This document shows, piece after piece, positions 2,440 through 58,727 of a stretch of DNA of 64,000 nucleotides (its first letter is position 1; the number at the start of each line of letters is the position of its first letter). This stretch comes from Coptis chinensis. Its lineage: Eukaryota; Streptophyta; Magnoliopsida; Ranunculales; Ranunculaceae. The stretch is taken from assembly GCA_015680905.1 (NCBI GenBank), contig CM027381.1, forward strand, positions 86,887,501-86,951,500, read 5' to 3'. The notes under the pieces are model-generated. The model searched no databases. It was not told the origin of the DNA and saw nothing but the letters and a program-made list of their open reading frames with translations. The position numbers and the translations under genes are program-made.

Positions 2440-4850
2440 ACAGTAGTATTTATATCATTCGTGGGTGCAGCCAACTCCCCGTGAGGTAATTGTATGATTT
2501 TCCAAGGTAACCATACGCCCGAGATCTTTTAAGTATCTTTCGTGATATAAAAGAAATACTTTATTACGATAGTTCTTATATTTAAAAATTTTATGGTCTA
2601 ATTCAAGCACAAAAAGGCTCTTTCGCGTAAGACTCTTAAGAGTATAAGCTACTAACCCAATGCAACCAATGAGGCAGTGACCCACTACTAATTTTACTAT
2701 CATCACTTGAAGTTTCCAAGTTGAAGTAGAGTTTACAAAAAAAAAACTTTCAAAACCATTATGCTTATTCTTGTGACTTGCATTGCTTGGAAAGATAGTC
2801 TGCAGCCCCAGATATGTCATCCCTCGAAACCCCGAAAACATTGCACGTATATATTGTTCCAATTGCAGTTTTTTAGTACTACCAACTTGTTTCATATGTT
2901 TGAATTGAGACTATTGAGAGTCATACCGGATTCGACTTACATATAAACCGACTTTAATAGCTGGTACTTTAATGAGCTTTGGGTTTGGCTATTGCATTGT
3001 AATTGGTCCAAACTTAGTTGTTATTAGAGTGAAGAGTACGTGTCTCTTGAGTTGGAGCATGTGTCCTGGTGTCTCCTATTTCGACATTTTTTCGTGAAAC
3101 CCGTGTCCAATTTTTTAGTTGAAACTTGAAACTGAGAGTGAAGTTATTACTTAATTTCTCTTTGGATTAATTTGAAGTTATTATATTAATCTTTTTGGAT
3201 TTTTAAATTCCTTGTATGTTCTTCATCAATTGCATTCCTCTCCTTCAACAGTTCTTCTTTGTTCTTGACAGTGTTATTGCATGTATTTATTTTTAAATAC
3301 ATTTTTTAGTACAATGAGTAAATCCGTTCTAGAGAATTGGTAATTGATTAAATATGTAATAATGTATAGTATATTGTTGCATTGTTTATTGTTTCCTTGG
3401 AAATATACTACTTTGTTAACCATCCCACTTCAGCACCTCTTTAACCTGTTCAATATTTTAGTTCATGTGATATACATATTAAAATATAGGAGCGAAAAAA
3501 CTATTTTTTATTTTATTTGTTTTAGAATAAATTCCGTGTTTATATTATGAGTACACTATACATAGACACACACACATATGCCATTGGGCTTTTTAAAAAT
3601 AAATTAAACTTTATTGGTAATAGATTTCACTTAATTTTCTTTTGAAATAAATACTAAACAATCTAATTAATAAATGAAATATTTGTCTATTCAAATATTT
3701 GAAGTAAACAAATGAAATAGTTATGCAATACGTAAGAATCCATATTTGTGTTTTAATGAGTAATTGCAAATTAATTTACTAATTAAAAAAATATAGTCTA
3801 GGTGATGTTATATGGAATTGTTTTTTTACTATTAATTATTTGAAAATAAAATATAATAATGCATAGCGGTGTATATATGAGTAGAAAAAATATATGAAAA
3901 TTATATTACCCAATAAGTTATTGACCACTCACTGACCCACCCTCTCACACTTTATCTCTAGCTACTATCCATAGTCCACATAATAATGGTAATTTTTTTT
4001 CTAAGTTTTTTATTATTTCTAGTTTTTTTGTTATAATTTTGATGGCATATACATATTAAAAAAGGAGTATTAAATTGAACAAAGACATAATATATATTGG
4101 ACTTTTCTTACTGTAGCCCAAATTCGTTAATTGGACCATTAAATTGAAAGCCCATTATTCTAAATCAATTATTGGACTTAAAATTTCAAAAGCCCACAGT
4201 TAGTAAAAGGCTTTGTTGAACACGTGTTTGTTGGAAGCCGTGTAGGCTATGTGTATGTTTGATTGACTAAACAAAGTTTTTGGAGAAAAAAAGTTTGTGT
4301 GTTTGACACTTTGACTAAACAAAAGCCAATTTCGTCTTCTCCTTCTCATTTCTCATTTTCTGCTACGCAATTTAATATCGGTGGTTCTCTTTGAATTTTC
4401 AAAACTTGTCTTAATTGAAGAGGGGCAATCAAATTATCGATTTGCTAAATTGGGCTTGATGTATATTTGGAAACACCTGTACTGAGCTTGATGTATACTT
4501 CTCACTTTCCAATTCCCTTTGTATGTATCAATGTATGGTTTAATATTAGTTTATTATATATATCCAGTATTTAGATGGGTTGGCATTTCTATAGGATTTG
4601 AATTTTACTTGCCACAAACTTTGCTCAGTGCTAAGCCCTTTAGTTTGTCTTTTTAAGCTCGGGGAAGGTTATCCTATAACTAATTCACCAAGTATATGGA
4701 TCTTTCAACTTTTGAGAATGGATCACGTTTGATTGATCAATGAAGTAATTGAGAGTTCTATTTAGTGATCAAGCTACGTCCAAGTAATAGTCTTTATTGA
4801 TGGCCGGATAGTGCAAGCACACAAACTGTGAGTGAGATCTTTACACAAAG
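2440..4850. other. Intergenic DNA, nothing recognised
   Basis: The stretch is AT-rich and contains only short open frames without family resemblance. The longest antisense frame (2895-2455) has no recognisable motif and an amino-acid mix typical of translated non-coding DNA. No splice-connected gene could be built here. Confidence 0.45.
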
Positions 4851-25554: not shown

Positions 25555-25695
25555 TGAAGGATTAATAGTAATAGTAAAATTTTATTATAGTTAATTAAGA
25601 AGAAAGTTGAGAGAGTGAAAATGACCCCGGATTAGTTATATTTCCGTCTCCTCAAACTTTGTTTTTATATAAGAAAATAGTATGTTTATAATATA
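25555..25695 (-). repeat. Copia-type LTR, left portion, interrupted by a Helitron
   Basis: This fossil LTR piece closely resembles 45152-45270 ('ttaattaagaagaaagttgagag' type start through 'aaaatagtatgttta'). It stops exactly where the Helitron terminus CTAG begins at 25696. The rest of the LTR appears to resume at 31410. It is the 3' LTR of the minus-strand copia remnant at 31486-32079. Confidence 0.7.
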
Positions 25696-26229
25696 CTAGT
25701 AAATGGGCACGTGCGATGCACGTGTCACGAAAATAGAAAATATTATTTTGAGAAGAATGATACACCAATGGTGGTGCTAGTAACCACAAATGGATATAGG
25801 TTCACGTCTTCGAAAACACTAATATCATAAATATATAATAGCATCTGATGGTTCAGTTTTAAATTTTACTCTAAACAATCTAATAACTATTAGATGGTGA
25901 AACAAATGCAAGAAAGCTATAGAGATGACTGTAGAGAGAACTAAAAGTCATTTGACACTACTCTCTATACATGAAGAAAATTTAACAATTAGAGCAAACA
26001 AAATCCAGAAAAAATACGCCCCAGAGAATAACAACTCATTTAGTTACCCATAATGTACTTTAAAGGAAGAAATGTAGATTTTCATACGCACATAAATGTC
26101 ACTAACAAAATCAAGTAATTGGGGGGCAGAGAGCCCAATTTTCCCAAATATTTTCGCCCTAAGTCCACTTTAATTTTAATTTCCATTAGTGTTTGTCTCC
26201 ACCATAGCCATGGTCTGCACTTTCGAATA

Positions 26230-26358
26230 GAAATGGATGATTGCAGCATTTCTTCAACTCAACCACAATGTTTAAGAGTGAAACCTACAAATTCAAAAGG
26301 TATAAATGTATATCAAAGTCCAATTGGTAGTAGTAGTAGGAATGGTCTCGTAGTTTAA
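26230..26358 (+). other. Short open frame inside the Helitron, unknown
   Basis: The plus-strand frame starting at the ATG near 26233 gives about 41 residues beginning [16 protein letters not shown], with a non-random look. It may be part of a fourth captured gene in the opposite orientation, or chance. I do not recognise it and assign no function. Confidence 0.2.
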
Positions 26359-26534
26359 AAGCTTTGGCGAAGCTCTAGTGTCACAGAGGAGGAATTTCTT
26401 ATTGACTTTTTCACTCTGTGAATGCTTTCGAACAGAATATTTAAAATTGCAGCAAGATAAAGAGACTCTAAAACTGGGTCACTGGACTTGCTTTCATGCA
26501 GAATAATGTATTGATAAAAACAAAAAAATCAAAC

Positions 26535-26768
26535 CTGATTACCATAGACTCCTTTGTTCAAGTCATGGAAGTTACGTTCTAATATCCATTTGTAATATCT
26601 ATGACAATGTAAAAAAGAAAAACCCAGGTCAGCTCATATTACCAACAGTTACAACTGTTCTTTAAAGATGAAATGAGTGCTAACTGTTTATGAAGAGGTG
26701 ACATCTCAACCCTAAGAATGCGTTCAATTTTTGGAGGAAGAGACTTCTCCACGTCCTTGATAACTCTT
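26535..26768 (-). pseudogene. Captured fragment of a CHD1/CHR5-type chromatin remodeller
   Basis: Two exon pieces are seen on the minus strand. 26768-26684 encodes [20 protein letters not shown] followed by MSPLHKQ. 26598-26535 encodes YYKWILERNFHDLNKGVYGN then Q. These are consecutive parts of the SNF2 ATPase of plant CHD1/CHR5 proteins, in the segment joining the two helicase lobes. The donor after the first piece reads CAG-TT instead of CAG-GT. The second piece keeps a GT donor. Only this short internal segment is present, so it cannot make a remodeller. It lies in the 3' part of the Helitron. Confidence 0.82.
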
Positions 26769-26819
26769 CTAAAATAATATGCAAATTTAAATTTACATGT
26801 GAAAATAAAACTATGTAAA

Positions 26820-26945
26820 TTTGCACGGGACTTACGACGAAATTAAAATTGAAAATGTGTCCTTAAGCCGAAATTTTGTCAGCCCGGTTTGGGACTTATG
26901 GCGAAATTATTATTGGGCTTTGTCCTTAGGCCGTAATCTTTGTAA
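26820..26945. repeat. Diverged direct repeat (gggacttaygrcgaaatt)
   Basis: 'gggacttacgacgaaatt' with 'gtccttaagccgaaat' is followed about 63 bp later by 'gggacttatggcgaaatt' with 'gtccttaggccgtaat'. The two units form an old tandem pair inside the Helitron. Confidence 0.5.
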
Positions 26946-27502
26946 CAAAATCGACGTGGAACGGTAGTGTCATAATATTTATAACTAAAACAAAAAAGCA
27001 GTAACATCATTGATACAAAGTCGAATATATATATATTTGAAGGGAAACAATGACTTTACCGGAAAAAAATTGGCTTTGACCTCGGACCGAATCCCGACAT
27101 TATTGGGGGCTTTGTAAATGTTCTTCAAGGCTGGCTTTGTGACTTAAAAGTAGTTACCAATGTAAGTCAGATTGAATGCTTCACTGTCGACTGCAACACA
27201 CCTGTAAATTTCATTCTTTTCAATAAGTTTTTCTCTTTTTCCAAGTGAGTGAGGTTTTTCCATATGACAACAAATTTCATGGATATTTAACTCTGAAATG
27301 CATAAAATAGAACTACAAATATAACATACCACCGATACGATTGCATTATTTCAACGGTTCAAATAAGGTTTGTCCAGAAGTAATCCTATCATACGTGAAA
27401 TACGGTTCTACAATGGAAACGGTTCTACAATGGAAACACAAATCAATCTCAAAAGAATTGAAGAGAGTGCAAATATGCTAAGAAACCTATTGGGCTAATT
27501 AC

Positions 27503-27957
27503 CTTGGCAGCTGTTAAATAAATTGAAGGATCAGGCTTCTTTTCCTTAACATCATCACCTATAAAAAGAGATGAACATTGCTCAACAATGTTACTGGCAT
27601 CATCGTCACTCTTAGGTCCAATAAACATGCATAAAAATATTCTTAAGAGGCACTTCTGCGTTAGCAATTTCATGGACTTGGTAATTCATTCAATAGATAT
27701 TTTGGTTGTGGACCCTCAAATTACCGCCTCTTCTAGTTCAAATCTCTCCTGGAAAAACAAAAAAATCAAATTTGCAAGCAAGCAAGCACAACTGATAGCG
27801 TAAAAGTTTTCTGCAACATATATCTATAGGTCATAAATAAAATTCAATTATATTCTTCTACCAGGCAGCATCCTGAGCACATTACAGAACACAGTATACA
27901 ATTCAACGAATGAAGAAACCTACCTGCAAGAAAGCAATCAAGACCTTGAAACTGCTC
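27503..27957 (-). pseudogene. Captured fragment of a HAD-superfamily hydrolase (At4g39970-like)
   Basis: Two exons with intact GT..AG junctions are seen on the minus strand. 27957-27924 encodes EQFQGLDCFLAG. 27558-27503 encodes GDDVKEKKPDPSIYLTAAK, whose first Gly is split by the intron. The KKPDP sequence is HAD motif III, holding the conserved Lys. The order matches CbbY-like plastid HAD hydrolases of the At4g39970 type. The N-terminal nucleophile domain and the DD motif of the C-terminus were not found nearby. A possible decayed downstream piece lies near 27200-27155 but is too weak to call. The fragment is the middle captured gene of the Helitron. Confidence 0.8.
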
Positions 27958-28406
27958 CTACAAAACACACCAAATAGCTGTGCATCAATAACTGAAGAAA
28001 TAACCACGCAGTATACAGGATAGTTGTGTCATGGTTTTAAACAAAAAATGGATGCAAAGAAATATAGCGGAAAATGATCATATGATAGAATACAATCATG
28101 AATGCATGTAATATATAAAAAATCCGTACACCACCACAATCCATAAAACCAATAACACTTTTAGTAGTATTGAGCATTGTAATATATACATAAATTTCTT
28201 TGCTCACTGCACAAAATTGATTGTAGTTTCAATGACAATGTCGAACTATACAAACTCACCAAGTGCAAATGGATGCCATCTTCTTTGATAGAAATTTCAT
28301 AATGATGTCACCGGTCTACTGTTGCACTACTCCCTATAGTAGGAAAAAAAAATCAGACTCCGTAAAAATTGCAAAGACATGATTGGAACAGAAGAGGAAA
28401 AATTAC

Positions 28407-28720
28407 TTTTGAGCTAGCCCGCCAATAAGATTGAAATTCAATGAAAAATTACTTAACAATGTTAGAAATGGGGTTTAAACACTCTGAAAATGCGGTTTAG
28501 TAAGACGAACTACCAAGCATCAACAAAAACAGGACATCATTTCTTTTGAGTATAATTCAATGATTTTGAGCTAACCCACCAATAAGATTGAAATTCAATG
28601 AAAAATTACTTAACAATGTTAGAAATGGGGTTTAAACACTCTGAAAATGCGGTTTAGTAAGACGAACTACCAAGCATCAACAAAAACAGGGTAGCATTTC
28701 TTTTGAGTATAATTCAATGA
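28407..28720. repeat. Tandem duplication, about 157-bp unit, in the Helitron
   Basis: The unit beginning 'ttttgagctarcccrcc' occurs at about 28407-28563 and again at 28564-28720 with few differences, including the phrases 'ggtttaaacactctgaaaa' and 'ggtttagtaagacgaac'. High similarity means a fairly recent local duplication, probably within the Helitron. Confidence 0.8.
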
Positions 28721-29474
28721 TTTACTTAGGTAAAAGATGTGCCATTCGACAGGGAATTAGTGTTGTGCAATAACTACGACTGTAAAATACTTGCAAAGCC
28801 TTAAGCTACACAGGCGAAAATCGTCTTAAGCCTTGAAGTGACTTACCCGTGCATATCTATTGACTTACCCGTACATTTCAATACCATAAAGGGTGCTGCT
28901 TGCTCTTTTTGAAAGGAATGCATCTAGTTATGTGCTTTAGTCAAGCACCTATGAGGCAGATTACTAAGGATGATTGAGTATTACACAAATTCAAGCTGGA
29001 GACATTTATTGTACAATAAAATGGAAATGAATGAAAAAATGTATATTTAGATTGGCTTGAGAATACCTTGAACAGAAAAGCTCATCGGAATGATTGAATT
29101 CTATCCAAAGTTTATATTCATTTCCATCTTTGTATCACGTTAACAAACACTAAATTTTAAAAGGAGGATTAATTAAAAATGGTAATATTAAAGAAAATGG
29201 TAATATATAAAGAACTTAAAAAATTAAAAAGGACTAACTTACCACTTGATGTCGTCTCTTTCGTGAAGAACCGGTGTGCAATTAATAAATTCTAAACATT
29301 TTGAGTATTAAATTCAATTCCAATAGAAATTAAAAATAATATGTGTTGCCTAAATATGAAAACATACAAAGAAGAAGAAGAGAAAAGACAAACCCCGGGC
29401 GGATGATCGAGTTCTAGAGAATTATAAGAATGGAAGTCAAAATTTCAGTAGTATATCAATACCATTTCCTGATC

Positions 29475-30766
29475 CTGTGGATCAGAAGGACTAAAGGACA
29501 GATTCCGGATGGCAGATCCTAAGCGTGGCTATCTCAATCTTCAGCAACAGCAATCACTGCAGCTTTCGCGGAAGCCAGAGAAGGATACATATAAGATGCT
29601 CCCAGTGAGAGGAAAGGTGTTGAATATCCAAGACTTAGATAACCTGAAATTTAATAGTAGAAAGGATTCACGCTCTTATCATTCTAACAAACAAAAGTTA
29701 CACAACACAACAATCTGTAAACATCAAAGAAAACAGGGTTATTGAATGACTACCAATAGATTGCCGAGTGGACTATACTTTTAATAGTAATGTATATCGG
29801 TACGTTCCGCCACACATCAATAGAAGAGTTTTTATTAATATTAGAAGTATATATGGATTCATGAACCTTGAAAATTGTTCTTTGAGAATGCTTAATTCAT
29901 GGGTCCATTCAACTATGCAAACAACAAAGCTGGTAGGGAATCCCCTATGTGGCTTCAAATGAATCTGGTGAGACTGATCAATTACTTAACAGCATTAACC
30001 CGAGGCAGAGTATTTAAAGTAGAAAAATGAAGATTTAAAAGAATGCAATATTAGGTGAAAAAGTATGGTGAGAGTGATATATAATACAGGCATACAAAAG
30101 AAAGAAAATGAGAAGGTTTGGGCCCTACGTTTTTCCTAACCCATGTAAGAAGTCAATTAATCCCGGCTCTACCAAAGAAATTTTCCAAATGCAAGCAACC
30201 TCTTCCCATGGTCTCCAACAATAAGCTCATAGTCATACAAAGACGCCCTTTCATCTAGTATCTGCAGGTTTTACATAATTTCATAAAAAAAAGAATGCAA
30301 GCATATGTACTCTTGAATAAGCTAGGAGCTAGGTAGGTACCTTATCTAGCAAAGGCATGCTTTCTTTCTGCGCCTTGTGGGTGTGAGAGAAGAAAGTGTA
30401 AGCCCTCTCGGGCAGAATCATCTCTAACTAAACCAGATGAAAGAAAAAATTACGTAGTGATCTATCTGTTGATCAAAGTGTAAGTAGAAGGGCAAATGAA
30501 TGAATTGAAGTATGCACCTTTGGGTGTTTGATGCCCAAAATAAGACCGCATCCTGATAGATCATGTGATAAATGACAGCCAACATCCTGATAAAGAGAGT
30601 CGTGATGGATGCGCTTGGTGGATGGCTGGACGATTATGCGTGTGACACCAGTTTTACCCCTTCCTCCGTGTAGAAGGCGAGCACAGTGTGAAGGGGTGAG
30701 AGGAGCTCTTCTTTCCCACTTGTTTCGAGACTCACAAAGGATTCCAATAATTCCATTTCCAAACAT
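29475..30766 (-). pseudogene. LKR/SDH: Captured 5' part of LKR/SDH (lysine degradation bifunctional enzyme)
   Basis: Exon 1 (30766-30518) begins MFGNGIIGILCESRNKWERR and includes 'RRAPLTPSHCARLLH' and 'RIIVQPSTKRIHHD'. Exon 2 (30427-30341) encodes LEMILPERAYTFFSHTHKAQ and so on. Exon 3 begins at 30261 with ILDERASLYDYELIVGDHGK. Junctions are GT..AG. Exon 3 then has a frameshift after 'LLAFGKF'. A later piece starting at 29643 encodes YLSLGYSTPFLSLGASYMYP, 'SLASAKAAVIAVAE', and then a second frameshift before 'LPSGICPLV'. In intact plants this N-terminal half is lysine-ketoglutarate reductase. The saccharopine dehydrogenase half is missing. This is the captured gene nearest the Helitron 5' end, promoter region included. 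Confidence 0.88.
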
Positions 30767-30892
30767 TGTATCCTCAAAACTATCAAATTTAATTAAAAAC
30801 ATAAATAAGGAAAGCTAATTAGATTAATGGAATGAATCACATATAGAAGAGAAGAAGAATGTAAGAATCTCACCGGATGATATGGGTTTTAA

Positions 30893-31265
30893 TTGGGAAT
30901 GGAGAAGACGAACGAACGGTTAACTTTTTTTTAATTGTGAACCCACCGAAACGGTGTCTTTGTCTCTGTTTGCCGAAGAAGTTGACCTTTATAGTTATGG
31001 GAATATTTTAAAGTAAACAATGAGAAAAATGCATACTAACCTTTAAAATGATTGGCTATTGGTTCAATAGAAATCGTTCTGATGGAGAGCAAGTTAGGAA
31101 TTATCAAATTTGTAGTTTCGATTTGAAAGTTAATATGGGTATTGGCCAGGAACGAAGAAGACGAGCGGTTTTCTTTTTTTTTTTAATTGCGAACCCGCCG
31201 AAACGGTGTATCTGTCTCTGTTTGCCGAAGAAGTTGACATTTATAGTTATGGGAATACTTTAAAT
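30893..31265. repeat. Duplicated block upstream of the LKR/SDH fragment
   Basis: A block of about 125 bp at 30893-31016 recurs at 31138-31262. Shared phrases include 'cgccgaaacggtgt', 'tgtctctgtttgccgaagaa', 'gttgac' and 'tttatagttatgggaata'. Because it directly precedes the captured first exon, it may be a duplicated 5' leader or promoter segment of LKR/SDH. Confidence 0.75.
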
Positions 31266-31409
31266 GACAAATTTACCCTTTCAATGAAGAACAAAAAATA
31301 AGTGGCTGTCTAACTTTCCGGTACTCTTCCAATTAAAAACTTTGTGTTAAAACCGGGAATACGGGAAGTAATTGGGAAATCTGGTATCCGCTTTATATAT
31401 AAGATAAGA

Positions 31410-32079
31410 TATAGAAAGCCTAAAAAAATTGACCACCCATTTGAGGGTCCCACCTAGCTATCACGCGACTTACAAAAACTCTAACCTCCTCCACCCCCTA
31501 AGCTGGAGTATAGAGATCACAAATAGCCAACTAGCTTGACTGAGAGAGAATGAAATGAAGCACGCAAATGGCGGCTTAGTGAGTACATCCACAAGTTGGT
31601 CTCGAGCACATGAAAGGAGTAACTATCCTTTTGCTCATAACTAAGTCCACGATGAAGTGATTATCAACCTCCGATCCACATGCTTAGTATGCTCATTAAA
31701 TACCAAAGTAATTACTCGCAATAAAGATAGCAGCTTGGTTATCACAAAACATCTACATAGGAGAAAGAACAACGATACCCATCTCAGAAAAAGCGAATGA
31801 ACCCACATCATCTCACAAGTTGTATGAGCCATATATAGCTCTATATTCAACTTCAACACTAGACCTAGCAATAACATTTTGTTTCTTGCTATGTCATGTA
31901 ACAAGATTCCCACCAACAAAGCTATAATACCCAGAAGTAGAACGACGATCAATACGACTATCAGCCCAGTTAGCATTAGAGTATGTACCCAATAATAGAC
32001 AGACTGTGATCATCTGTATAGTAGACCTTGACTTGGAGAACCCTTCAAATACCTTAGAACTCAAATAATCAAGGCCCTA
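31410..32079 (-). mobile_element. Ty1/copia retrotransposon remnant (RNase H and 3' LTR)
   Basis: This fossil on the minus strand begins near 32079 with the end of the reverse transcriptase/RNase H region ('YLKG'-like, then the RNase H core with 'MAHTTCEMMW' near 31810). It runs to a purine-rich tract (about 31500-31486) and the first part of the 3' LTR (31485-31410). The rest of that LTR is at 25695-25555 beyond the Helitron. It is strongly decayed and carries many breaks. A CACTA end abuts it at 32080. Confidence 0.8.
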
Positions 32080-33700
32080 CACTACTAAAAAGAAGGGGCC
32101 CGACATATAAAGTGTTACCAAAAGTTTTACTAAAAGCCACTTGTGTCACTTTTGAAACTAATTCTGAAGTGACCTATAAGCCCCCGACACATAAAATTTT
32201 ACCAAAAGTGACACAAAAGCCTTGCTAAATGTGTCACTTTTTGTTCATAAAAGTGACACTTAAGAACAGTCTCTTGTGTCACTTTTAAGAAAGAGTGTCA
32301 CAGTGCTTGTCAAAAGTGACACTAGTTATATCCGTTTTGGACCAAAGTGGGACATAATTTCGTCAAAAGTGACACATTAAGTATACTAGTTGTGTCACTT
32401 TTGGACCAGAGTGAGACACAAGTACTTCAAAAGTGACACATTAAGTATATTAGTTGTGTCACTTTTGGACCAGAGTTAAACACAAGTACGTCAAAAGTGA
32501 CACATTAAATATACTAATTATGTCACTTTTGGACCAGAGTGAAACACAAGTACGTCAAAAGTGACACATTAAATATACTAGTTGTGTCACTTTTTGGACC
32601 GAGAGTTTCTGAAGTACATCAAAAGCGACACAAAAGCCCCTTACTTCTTGTGTCACTTTTGAGAATCAACTCCATGTAACTCGTATGAAAAAGAAAGTAA
32701 TATATAAAAGTGGTCAGTTGTGTCACTTTTAATAGATATTATGTCACTTTTTCCAAAAGCGAGACAAATGAAAATAATTTTTTTTTAAAACTTTTTCTCA
32801 TTTTTATATTCGATCGTATTTATTTCTCAACCTGCATCCTATACGTCATAACCAAAATCTCATTAACCTGCTTTATGATAGAAACAACATCCACATACAT
32901 TTATCAAAATATCACAACCAAAATCACTTTACGGAAACAACATCCACTCGAGAAGAAAGAAACAACTAACATTCAAAACAATTAACTTCTATTGATTTCA
33001 TCGATCAAACTAAGTATTTATCATCTAATTTGACTCCCAACAAAAGAATTCATTCCAATACCAAAAGAATCACAATTCAAAAAAAAAACAAAAAACTACA
33101 TAGCGCCAATACTATCCTAACAATATCTTAGCTTGTTGTGCGCACTTCCAACACCAAAAAACCTAACTGATATCTATTCATCTGTTAATCGATCCATGCA
33201 TCTGTATCATATAATAAAGTCGTCATTCCACTATGATTAGTATATAAAATTAAAAAGCAAGTGAATCAAGAAGGGTATACTATACAAGTAAGAAAAAAAA
33301 TCGATAAAAAAAGTATATATACATAAAGAAAAGGAAAATATGGAAGCGCACTTACCCAAATTAACTACTCAGATAAATTGTTGGATAAAGTCGATGAATT
33401 CAAGACGAAGTTCATCTATTTCAGTGGTGTAACTCTTCTTGCTAAAGAACTCTAATACCTGTTCGACGAAAAATATATTATAAATATTATGAAAATAAAT
33501 AATGCAGGCAATGCATTGCCTACCTTATTTACACATGCACCAATTTATAAACTAGCTAAGACTATATGAAAAATAATACTACTTTACAGTCACTTTTTTT
33601 TTTAGTAGTGGACCAGGATCCTCTACTAAATCTCGCATAAAGCGCAATACATAATATCCACATACAATCCCCGCTTTGTTGTTGCGGGCACTATACATAA
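32080..33700 (-). mobile_element. CACTA (En/Spm) transposon, one end with Ulp1-like fragment
   Basis: The left terminus reads CACTACTAAAAAGAAGG at 32080. It is followed by a subterminal array (about 32105-32760) of 'aaaagtgacac' and 'gtgtcacttttg' motifs in both orientations, more than fifteen in all, as is normal for CACTA ends. Farther in, the minus strand encodes NNKAGIVCGYYVLRFMRDLV near 33680-33610, followed by EDPGP. It also encodes VLEFFSKKSYTTEIDELRLE near 33460-33400. These resemble the C-terminal part of the C48/Ulp1-type protease genes carried by plant CACTA elements. The right end was not found, so the element is probably truncated or reaches into the repeat array beyond 33.9 kb. 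Confidence 0.75.
32105..32760. repeat. CACTA subterminal repeat array (aaaagtgacac)
   Basis: A longer unit of about 65 bp, 'gtgtcacttttggaccagagt' followed by 'caaaagtgacacattaa', repeats four to five times between 32320 and 32610 with small changes. Outside it, single inverted motifs occur. In this superfamily such motifs bind the element-encoded TNPA-like protein. Confidence 0.85.
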
Positions 33701-35618: not shown

Positions 35619-37061
35619 TGATATTATCGTTTTACTACGTTAGAGATTTGACTATCTAATTTGATGCAAAAGCGAATTCAAAGTTCCTTACTCACGATCT
35701 TCGCGTTCATAAAAGTTGAAGTAAGGATCGAACCAACCTAAAAGTTAGGACAACTACAACTTGGTTGTTACTTTTAGGGAACTAGTGAGTAAGTTTATAT
35801 TAATACTAGGTTTCTTTCCTACATAAACATTAAAGAAAAACATTAAGATTCGAAATATGCAACTAAGACAAAATACAATTTACTAAAGAAAAGGTGGAGA
35901 GCTAATCCTCCTCATGTGAAAATAACATTTAGTTATTGATTTGAAAAGGTTCATTTGATTCTTCCTAGACTCATAGACAATCCCTAATGGAAGAAAACTT
36001 GATCTCTAACATGTATGGCTCATTTCTAAACTCATACATGTTAGCAATTGGAATCAAGCAATGACTTATCTCTAAGCTCATTACTTGATTCCTAACTAGA
36101 CACTACACCAACTATCATTTTGGGATAGGATGTAGGTCAAGTTGTTCTTCCTAACAACCTACCAAGCCAACAACAATTATTTTCCCTCACATGAGTTGGA
36201 TTAACTCCCCAAAAGGGAAGTTAGCTCATGATCCTTGGGATAAAGGATTACAAACTAGAAGAACAAAAAGAGAGAGAGAAAGAGGAAGAAGAAAAACTAA
36301 CTAAACTCATTTGCTTTTTATTTATTTTCTAGAAGAAAACCAAAGTTTCCTCCATTAAAACTATTACAAGCTTTCTTACAAACCTAAAACTAAATAATAA
36401 AAATGACTAAGGAACTAAAATAATACAAGGTAAGGAATAGAAGTCAAGGGAGTAAATGGAGTGTCCCCCCCTTTGCTTTGTTTTCTTCTTCATTTGAGAG
36501 ACATCTCATTTCCTCCCATGTGAAACATCAAACCACATTTACTTCATTTTTATCCACCACATTAAAACAAAGTGACACCTTGCCTTTTTTTCACTATTAA
36601 CACCTAATCTAATTAATTACATGCAAGGTGTCAACTTTGCACCAATAATTTGTCATTTTGTCTTGACATGCTCCATGATTGATGACTCATCCAATCTTAT
36701 GGCCCGTGATAGTGGGTCCTATATGCAAAAGGTCCATGGCGGTCCGGTTTTTGGGCAATTTTACAACTTTTCCTTTATGCGTAGAGTTCATCGCCTGATT
36801 GTCCGAAAGCAGCTCACTTGTCGATTCGAGTCCTGGTTCAAGAGGTAGGAGCTTCAAAAGTTTGATGCTTCGTGGATTTGGAAGATTTCATATATATGTC
36901 GTTCCTCGTGGCTTTATCGCGAGGTTTAAACCATATTTTCATGTCTATCGCGAATACCGCAAAAGTATGAAAACATATTTATTTCATGATTATTAAACAC
37001 ATAGTTAACCAAATTTATATGTCTCAACGGGGTTTCATAATACACTTTTGGGTGCTTATCA
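35619..37061 (-). repeat. 3' LTR of the Athila-type element
   Basis: About 1,443 bp, matching 40384-41832 almost throughout. The purine tract at 37062-37080 (read on the minus strand) marks this copy as the 3' LTR. Confidence 0.9.
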
Positions 37062-40383: not shown

Positions 40384-41832
40384 TGATATTATCGTTTTAC
40401 TACGTTAGAGATTTGACTCTCTAATTTGATGCAAAAGCGAATTCAAAGTTCCTTACTCACGATCTTCGCGTTCATAAAAGTTGAAGTAAGGATCGAACCA
40501 ACCTAAAGGTTAGGACAACTACAACTTGGTTGTTACTCTTAGGGAACTAGTGAGTAAGTTTATATTAATACTAGGTTTCTTTCCTACATAAACATTAAAG
40601 AAAAACATTAAAATTCGAAATATGCAACTAAGATAAAATACAATTTACTAAAGAAAAGGTGGATAGCTAATCCTCCTCATGTGAAAATAACATTTAGTTA
40701 TTGATTTGAAAAGGTTCATTTGATTCTTCCTAGACTCATAGACAAGCCCTAATGGAAGAAAACTTGATCTCTAACATGTATGGCTCATTTCTAAATTCAT
40801 ACATGTTAGCAATTGGAATCAAGCAATGACTTATCTCTAAGCTCATTACTTGATTCCTAACTAGACATTACACCAACTATCATTTTGGGATAGGATGTAG
40901 GTCAAGTTGTTCTTCCTAACAACCTACCAAGCCAACAACAATTATTTTCCCTCACATGAGTTGGATTAACTCCCCAAAAGGGAAGTTAGCTCATGATCCT
41001 TGGGATAAAAGGATTACAAACTAGAAGAACAAAAAAGAGAGAGAAAGAGGAAGAAGAAAAAAACTAACTAAACTCACTTGCTTTTTATTTATTTTCTAGA
41101 AGAAAACCAAAGTTTCCTCCATTAAAACTATTACAAGCTTTCTTACAAAACTAAAACTAAATAATAAAAATGACTAAGGAACTAAAATAATACAAGGTAA
41201 GGAATAGAAGTCAAGGGAGTAAATGGAGTGTCCCCCCCTTTGTTTTGTTTTCTTCTTCATTTGAGAGACATCTCATTTCCTCCCATGTGAAACATCAAAC
41301 CACATTTACTTCATTTTTATCCACCACATTAAAACAAAGTGACACCTTGCCTTTTTTTTTCACTATTAACACCTAATCTAATTAATTACATGCAAGGTGT
41401 CAACTTTGCACCAATAATTTGTCATTTTTGTCTTGACATGCTCCATGATTGATGACTCATCCAATCTTGCGGGCACGTATAGTAGGTCCTTTGTGCAATC
41501 CAGTGGCGGTCCAGTCTTTGGGCAATTTTATAACTTCCCGCCTATGCGTAGAGTTCATCATACGATTGTCCGAAAATTTCACTTGTCGTGATTCAGAGTC
41601 CCGGGTTCAAGAGGTAGGAGCTTCGGAAGTTTGATGCTTCTGTGCGGATTTGGAAGATTTCATATATATGTCGTTCCTCGTGCTTTATCGCAGGTTTAAA
41701 CCATATTTCCATGTCTACTGCGAATACCTGCAAAAGTATGAAAACATATTTATTTCATGATTATTAAACACATAGTTAACCAAATTTATATGTCTTAACG
41801 GGGTTTCATAATACACTTTTGGGTGCTTATCA
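40384..41832 (-). repeat. 5' LTR of the Athila-type element
   Basis: About 1,449 bp. It lies next to the primer-binding site at about 40379-40366 (minus strand), so it is the 5' LTR. Confidence 0.9.
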
Positions 41833-51927: not shown

Positions 51928-52073
51928 TATTTTTACTTTTACTTTACTGCTCAGGCCCATAAAATCTTATGACATCCATTTTATGCCCACTCAACTAATC
52001 ACTTTGCGCACATTTGTTGTGTTTTAGTCCAAAAGGCCTTTTTTAACCGGAGAAAAATATCCAAAAGATTTTT

Positions 52074-52155
52074 GGGGTTTTTAGGTTTTGGTCCTCCTAA
52101 TAATAAGGTAATTAGGCTTTGGTCCAACAATGATCGATTATTAGGTTTTGGTCCT
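52074..52155. repeat. Left terminal inverted repeat of the MULE
   Basis: About 75-80 bp. One or two differences from the right copy ('aataaggtaatt' here, 'aatagagtaatt' in the reversed right copy). Confidence 0.9.
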
Positions 52156-58641: not shown

Positions 58642-58718
58642 AAAAACCTAATAATCGATCATTGTTGGACCAAAGCCTAATTACTCTATTATTAGGAGGA
58701 CCAAAACCTAAAAACCCC
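58642..58718. repeat. Right terminal inverted repeat of the MULE
   Basis: Mirror of the left terminus. It lies about 900 bp upstream of the ZDS start codon. Confidence 0.9.
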
Positions 58719-58727
58719 AAGAGTTTT

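Follow-up and report, generated by a model that had tools for sequence, protein, structure and literature searches.

A Coptis chinensis Helitron carrying fragments of three unlinked genes: evidence for stepwise assembly

Introduction

How does a single transposon come to carry pieces of three unrelated host genes? The question is raised by a 64-kb stretch of the Coptis chinensis genome (C5:86887501-86951500, hereafter the window), in which the interval 25696-31409 had been described in an earlier note, made from the sequence alone, as a Helitron that has picked up exon pieces of a CHD1/CHR5 remodeller, a HAD hydrolase and LKR/SDH. Following how pieces of unlinked genes came together in one Helitron is difficult once the intermediates are lost. 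In this genome, the source genes are preserved along with elements that have only some of the fragments, an acceptor free of the capture and an exact empty site, and the borders of one capture can be placed to the base. We conclude, with a probability of roughly 0.93, that the interval is a stepwise mosaic, a non-autonomous Helitron that was presumably mobilised in trans. All comparisons of copies, sources and empty sites were made within a single assembly of 935.6 Mb in 116 contigs, of which C1-C9 measure 85-125 Mb each.

The element has the termini of a plant Helitron

Plant Helitrons of the CTRR type start with 5′ TC and end in 3′ CTRR, preceded by a hairpin some 10-12 nt from the end. They insert between A and T without target-site duplication, carry no terminal inverted repeats and depend on RepHel proteins that are either their own or supplied in trans. 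On the minus strand, the interval ends in the hairpin CACGTGC-ATC-GCACGTG, followed by 12 nt ending in CTAG (25699-25696) and then by T. The hairpin has a folding energy of -7.8 kcal/mol (z -3.69), and an equally good fold was obtained in none of 200 shuffles. At the opposite end, the copies have a core 5′ end in common, A followed by TCTTATATATAAAG, which starts at 31404. The window copy carries one additional TCTTA unit that reaches 31409, and because the copia relatives described below lack this unit, 31409 is the better 5′ end for this copy. Across copies, the number of TCTTA units ranges from 1 to 4 (L018 and L020 among them), which could reflect slippage at the 5′ end. The hairpin with CTAG, the TC start and the flanking A and T had all been read correctly in the earlier note, with the addition that the core shared among copies begins at 31404.

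The same ends recur at other sites, as the earlier note had expected. TCTTATATATA(A/C)AG preceded by A is present in 9 of the 11 other 5′ ends displayed, the two altered ones both lying in L024. Among the other 3′ ends displayed, four of six retain the region with CTAG and T (in L014 with an altered hairpin) and two are degenerate. Grouped by eye and with the window included, the 5′ ends stand at six or seven distinct sites, several of them sharing flanks, and the retained 3′ ends at four. A separate genome search with the 120-bp 3′ terminus gave at least 25 matches, seven of which (window counted) span at least 119 bases. The 5′ module (31010-31404) is found with 91-97% identity at no fewer than eight places besides a second full copy on C3, and with 87% in the element C8:90434k; an 88-bp part of it, 31177-31264, is repeated at 30925-31012. 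In the rest of the window, blastn with the Helitron gave no match at E 1e-3.

None of the four inverted repeats of at least 40 bases in the window lies at the element ends; shorter ones were not sought. The longest inner stop-to-stop frame measures only 113 aa, so the element does not encode RepHel. With 5′ TC, a CTRR hairpin end, insertion between A and T without duplication, no terminal inverted repeats of 40 bases or more and ends recurring at unrelated sites, 25696-31409 is confirmed as a real non-autonomous rolling-circle transposon. Its parts, and the portions of the long terminal repeat (LTR) on either side, are as follows.

25696..31409, minus: whole non-autonomous Helitron, 5,714 bp (5,709 bp counted from the core 5′ end at 31404)
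31010..31404, minus: 5′ terminal module, begins TCTTATATATAAAGCGG; recurs elsewhere, listed as repeat D14
29426..30788, minus: LKR/SDH fragment, from the leader through exon 4, including start codon and introns; 90% to the C48 source
28046..29424, minus: segment C, a repeat adjoining LKR in which 157 bp are duplicated in tandem; also occurs alone on C6, C2, C3 and other contigs
27468..28014, minus: HAD hydrolase (presumably At4g39970-like) fragment, two exons with introns; 86.6% to the C4 source, protein 91%
26773..27473, minus: 3′ Helitron body, first part, with a palindromic stretch at its end; shared with C3:118.02M, C9:69.1M, C9:68.7M and C2:5.8M
26186..26772, minus: CHR5/CHD1 fragment, parts of three exons; 93.4% to the C8 source, Pfam and PDB matches
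25696..26183, minus: 3′ Helitron body and 3′ terminus; from the 120-bp terminus search
25696..25724, minus: 3′ hairpin and CTAG, hairpin 12 nt from the end
25573..25695, minus: putative copia LTR, portion 3′ of the Helitron; the joined flanks match relatives across the joint
31410..32076, minus: putative copia LTR, portion 5′ of the Helitron, and end of the copia coding frame; joined flanks, and an RNase H-like short frame at 31894-32076

A second copy and empty sites

The whole element was used as query in a genome search that gave at least 69 matches, with the best 40 of 871 candidates scored. Among these, the compact trio is complete in at least two copies, the window copy and C3:1746649-1752332 (5,684 bp). 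Over their full length the two agree at 98%, and 5,668 aligned bases contain 67 substitutions (Kimura two-parameter distance 0.0119). If substitutions accumulate at about 6.5e-9 per site and year, the two would have diverged near 0.9 million years ago, although some of the differences may be assembly errors. Their flanks are unlike, and homology ends at the termini except for a few AT-rich bases. An empty site for the C3 copy exists at C3:1894639-1895333, where the joined flanks match straight through (675 of 691 aligned bases identical, 13 gap columns). Across the joint it reads ATATA followed directly by TAGC, without target duplication.

The window copy lies inside an LTR that the earlier note had called a split copia LTR. 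Six relatives with 73-79% identity continue across the joint of its flanks, so that both the split and the expected empty LTR site are found in this genome. In the three relatives that were aligned, the TCTTA unit and 4 bp, TATA, set the joint apart from the window. The host is probably copia, judging from a 34-aa similarity at 38% between the window frame 31894-32076 and the RNase H end downstream of an RVT_2 (Pfam) frame in L009; two short copia frames of the window, this one among them, gave no Pfam match. Within this genome we found neither the trio side by side without Helitron ends nor ends that fail to recur, the two outcomes that had been named as speaking against a Helitron.

Sources of the three gene fragments

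The LKR/SDH fragment opens with 22 bp of leader and runs from the start codon through exon 4 (exons at about 30766-30518, 30427-30341, 30261-30128 and 29643-29463). It matches Pfam AlaDh_PNT_N (PF05222, 4.4e-9) and AASS in PDB (6.8e-10), and over window 30788-29426 it is 90% identical to a locus on C48 (L031 1512-2831). Frames of this source beyond the fragment are, as we read them, further LKR/SDH exons. Divergence of the window fragment from the source is 3.0% in exons and 10.6% in introns, a difference that is expected if only the source gene is constrained and the element copy is unselected.

The HAD fragment, with exons at about 27957-27924 and 27558-27503 and its introns kept, derives from C4 (L043 2096-1508; 86.6% over window 28014-27468). 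The fragment itself has no Pfam match and only a weak PDB match (At3g48420, E 0.064). The identification as a HAD hydrolase stands on 91% protein identity to the C4 locus, whose frames give weak HAD matches of their own; as in the earlier note, we take it to be presumably At4g39970-like.

The CHR5 fragment holds an exon end (about 26772-26685), a whole exon (26598-26535) and the start of a third (26284-26186). Its PDB match to CHD1 (2.3e-6) and its 93.4% identity over window 26772-26186 to a locus on C8 (L025 3087-3678) uphold the assignment to CHD1/CHR5; SNF2-rel_dom, at 7.1e-5, is under the Pfam cut-off. SNF2 and Helicase_C frames surround the captured piece in the source. A 116-bp stretch over the third CHR5 exon occurs at no fewer than 12 other places at 78-80%. 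Two of these, L067 (C8:33382500-33383500) and L068 (C7:27814900-27815900), share 96% identity over about 1 kb and belong to a different dispersed repeat. Amid sequence that otherwise differs, each has two CHR5 exon pieces (source 3564-3680 and about 3746-3799; 80-93% identity to the source), apparently the result of a separate uptake of the gene.

All three fragments lie on the minus strand, the orientation of the element, and their introns align with those of the source genes, as the earlier note had stated. A processed pseudogene or retrocopy is ruled out by the introns. The sources on C48, C4 and C8 are unlinked and hold further exons that are absent from the element, in keeping with the parental genes that had been expected elsewhere in the genome. 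Fragments of several unlinked genes, together with relatives that have subsets of them, are what a Helitron that captures genes stepwise presents.

Segment C was considered as a possible fourth gene; when ten frames from one of its stand-alone copies were compared with Pfam, nothing scored better than E 0.1. Its 157-bp tandem duplication (window 28407-28723) is also present in the C3 copy, whereas C8:90434k and the stand-alone copy L026 have the unit once.

Proposed order of assembly

The joint between LKR and segment C is identical in the window, C8:90434k and C8:30.9M (L010, L004), and the LKR source breakpoint at 2831 is common to the window and seven loci, L004-L010. A further element on C9 is split, with a match to the joint at C9:79942677-79943782 and one to the upstream LKR part at C9:79957236-79958332, 14 kb apart. 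The joint therefore appears to have spread in at least eight elements and probably in a ninth. Six LKR elements (C8:30.9M, C6:96.6M, C3:1.765M, C1:2.41M, C4:94.56M and C9:79.9M) gave no HAD match in a genome-wide search, and CHR5 was not found in the stretches fetched from them. Another 5′ end variant, TCTTATATATAATGGG, is present in four of the five displayed LKR elements without HAD.

The genome-wide HAD search hit four places, one of which is the source, leaving the coding sequence in three elements. In four other loci, the 3′ body that adjoins HAD in the window continues differently upstream, with other sequence replacing HAD. TGC is shared at the joint of HAD and 3′ body. Since HAD stands between segment C and a 3′ body that occur apart elsewhere, the element joins modules of different Helitrons.

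For CHR5, a search over the site of its insertion gave at least 62 matches (best 40 of 210 candidates scored). C3:118.03M has the longest CHR5 piece, source 2499-3696, along with the 3′ body and with other sequence replacing HAD. C8:90434k carries LKR, segment C, HAD and a shortened CHR5 piece (source 2499-3120). At C2:5.79M (L015), the palindrome of the CHR5 site is uninterrupted and without CHR5, reading ...TTTACATAGGA CTTATGAC GAAATTAAAATT.... In the elements with CHR5, the left edge reads ...ACATTGGA or ...ACATGGA and then follows the source from GTAATGC onward, and the other edge reads ...CACTAATG GAAATTAAAATT. The insertion replaces about 8 bp, with 2-3 bp of microhomology at either edge. 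In 12 of the 21 listed loci with the right-hand CHR5 flank, the left-hand flank lies less than 1 kb away on the same strand and CHR5 is absent. The exchange of some 8 bp within the element, with microhomology, speaks for the repair of an internal break rather than for read-through beyond the 3′ end. We infer that CHR5 was captured in this way, as in the filler-DNA model of break repair.

The following history would account for these data. LKR/SDH sequence would have become linked to segment C, with the resulting joint then spreading among elements. Separately, a CHR5 piece of 1.2 kb would have entered the palindromic 3′ body of another Helitron at the replaced 8 bp. The 3′ body that had gained CHR5 may then have been united with the module of LKR and segment C, including the 5′ end of that module, with the HAD piece at the joint. 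Finally, one descendant would have lost about 590 bp of the CHR5 piece, giving the compact form now present on C3 and, in the copia LTR of the window, on C5. Mobilisation would have been in trans, by RepHel proteins of other Helitrons. The gene fragments are most likely passengers without protein function that are possibly transcribed.

Alternative explanations

Several observations weigh against this history. In the LKR introns, C8:90434k differs by 2.0% from C8:30.9M and by 6.9% from the window copy; it nonetheless shares the window-type left edge of LKR, HAD and CHR5. These conflicting affinities indicate a reticulate history that is compatible with more than one order of steps. They would be accounted for if elements had recombined with each other or if the short elements had lost HAD and CHR5. 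Two elements with the 3′ body and end and no CHR5, C9:69.1M and C9:68.7M, are not clean pre-capture forms, because the sequence around the CHR5 site is also gone. A genome-wide search for the Rep domain Helitron_like_N gave at least 157 matches (best 150 of 2,000 candidates scored), none of which was tied to these ends. The empty site of the window copy is known only from the relatives with 73-79% identity, and because these differ by the 4-bp TATA beside the extra TCTTA unit, it is by itself not conclusive for a duplication-free insertion. Finally, the palindrome at the CHR5 site also occurs dispersed in the genome, and this repeat may itself have been the acceptor.

The last point leads to the alternative that survives best, in which CHR5 was captured by a palindromic repeat merely nested in the Helitron, so that not every capture was the Helitron's own. 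The CHR5 flanks (26850-26777 and 26183-26105) form the dispersed palindrome, which is found without the rest of the element, and the CHR5 exon pieces in L067 and L068 indicate that other repeats do take up this gene. However, the Helitron 3′ body and end come directly after the CHR5 piece at C3:118M and C2:62.9M, and among the at least 62 matches listed no palindrome with a long CHR5 piece lies outside such a body. We regard capture by a nested repeat as unlikely, although it keeps an appreciable share of the probability.

It is rather improbable that the element yields a chimeric sense RNA, or small RNAs, acting on LKR/SDH, the HAD gene or CHR5. The three pieces share one orientation, GT and AG are present at the intron edges inspected, and in the window copy the LKR start codon is followed by exons 1 and 2 in an open frame of 112 codons. 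Chimeric transcripts of maize Helitrons are reported (PMC4528327). On the other hand, the window copy is frame-shifted in LKR exons 3-4, exon 1 of the C3 copy is interrupted by a stop, and the lower divergence in exons than in introns is the pattern expected if the source gene is constrained and its copy is free of selection.

These frame shifts may not all be real, since the LKR copies contain clusters of differences that are probably assembly errors. Among eight LKR copies, private differences amount to 76 of 3,580 informative positions in exons and 19 of 3,915 in introns, a count to which alignment around indels may add. The clusters consist of scrambled bases and small indels between near-identical copies, mainly in exons 3-4, and were seen in the LKR part of C3:1746649-1752332 (L009), L010, L005 and L008 and at window 30260-29460. 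A similar cluster lies in a HAD intron stretch (window 27880), so the clusters are not strictly bound to exons. Gene conversion as their cause was rejected, many being private to single copies. We consider assembly errors, at places where short reads map to many sites, the most likely cause. That the captured exons undergo local clustered mutation sparing the introns, through RNA- or small-RNA-guided damage or repair, seems very doubtful; an exon-biased mutational process would hold only if the clusters are real and not errors of assembly or alignment.

It is still less credible that all three fragments were captured at once, or that the mosaic arose by ordinary recombination outside transposons and has fortuitous ends. 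In its favour, among the best 40 of 871 candidates the compact trio is confined to two copies. Against it stand HAD in three elements only and LKR in six further ones, the C3:118M 3′ body that has CHR5 and other sequence replacing HAD, and ends that occur at differing flanks with an exact empty site. A segmental duplication of the window locus, suggested by the 98% end-to-end identity of the two copies, can practically be dismissed as origin of the second copy, which has different flanks, homology that stops at the termini and its own empty site on C3.

Other features of the window

Next to the LTR, window 32080-33610 starts with CACTACTAAAAA (32080), ends with TTTTTAGTAGTG (33599-33610) and contains a 64-bp tandem array within 1.5 kb. 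It could be a CACTA-like element; two such end matches are not beyond chance, as two or more were obtained in 16 of 100 shuffles. The direct repeats 35619-37061 and 40384-41832, which are 96-100% alike and about 4.77 kb apart, are possibly LTRs of a retrotransposon. Two 85-bp inverted repeats, 52065-52149 and 58643-58727 (94% complementary, 6.5 kb apart), may mark a DNA transposon.

Comparison with known systems

Pack-MULEs and gene-carrying CACTA elements, an example of the latter reportedly being soybean Tgm-Express, have terminal inverted repeats and target duplications. Like them, the element in the window carries host exons with introns; unlike them, it shows no terminal inverted repeats of at least 40 bases, and no target duplication was found.

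Gene capture by plant transposons is described as well established in a 2026 review (PMC13317346), and three fragments in one Helitron are ordinary. The merit of the present case is that its intermediates can be traced. It also serves as a warning for annotation, since such fragments can pass for genes.

Rice offers one two-gene Helitron combination in 121 elements (PMC2575219). There as here, a small number of captures multiplied through transposition and perhaps through recombination among elements, whereas the compact trio of C. chinensis has at least two full copies. The same source lists LKR/SDH among the genes captured in maize, one element as lysine ketoglutarate reductase/saccharopine dehydrogenase and one as aminoadipic semialdehyde synthase. 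The likeness lies in the host gene captured; in contrast to one listed element per name, the piece described here is present in at least eight and probably nine elements.

The closest parallel is with the maize helA and helB Helitrons (PMC3288121). helA elements carry 0-12 gene fragments with a mean of 3, and stepwise capture has been proposed for them. In both systems, several fragments come from different chromosomes, relatives have differing sets of fragments, captured DNA was inserted internally and internal sequence was lost. The species and the fragments are different, and in C. chinensis the sources, the subsets, an uncaptured acceptor and an exact empty site are found together in one assembly.

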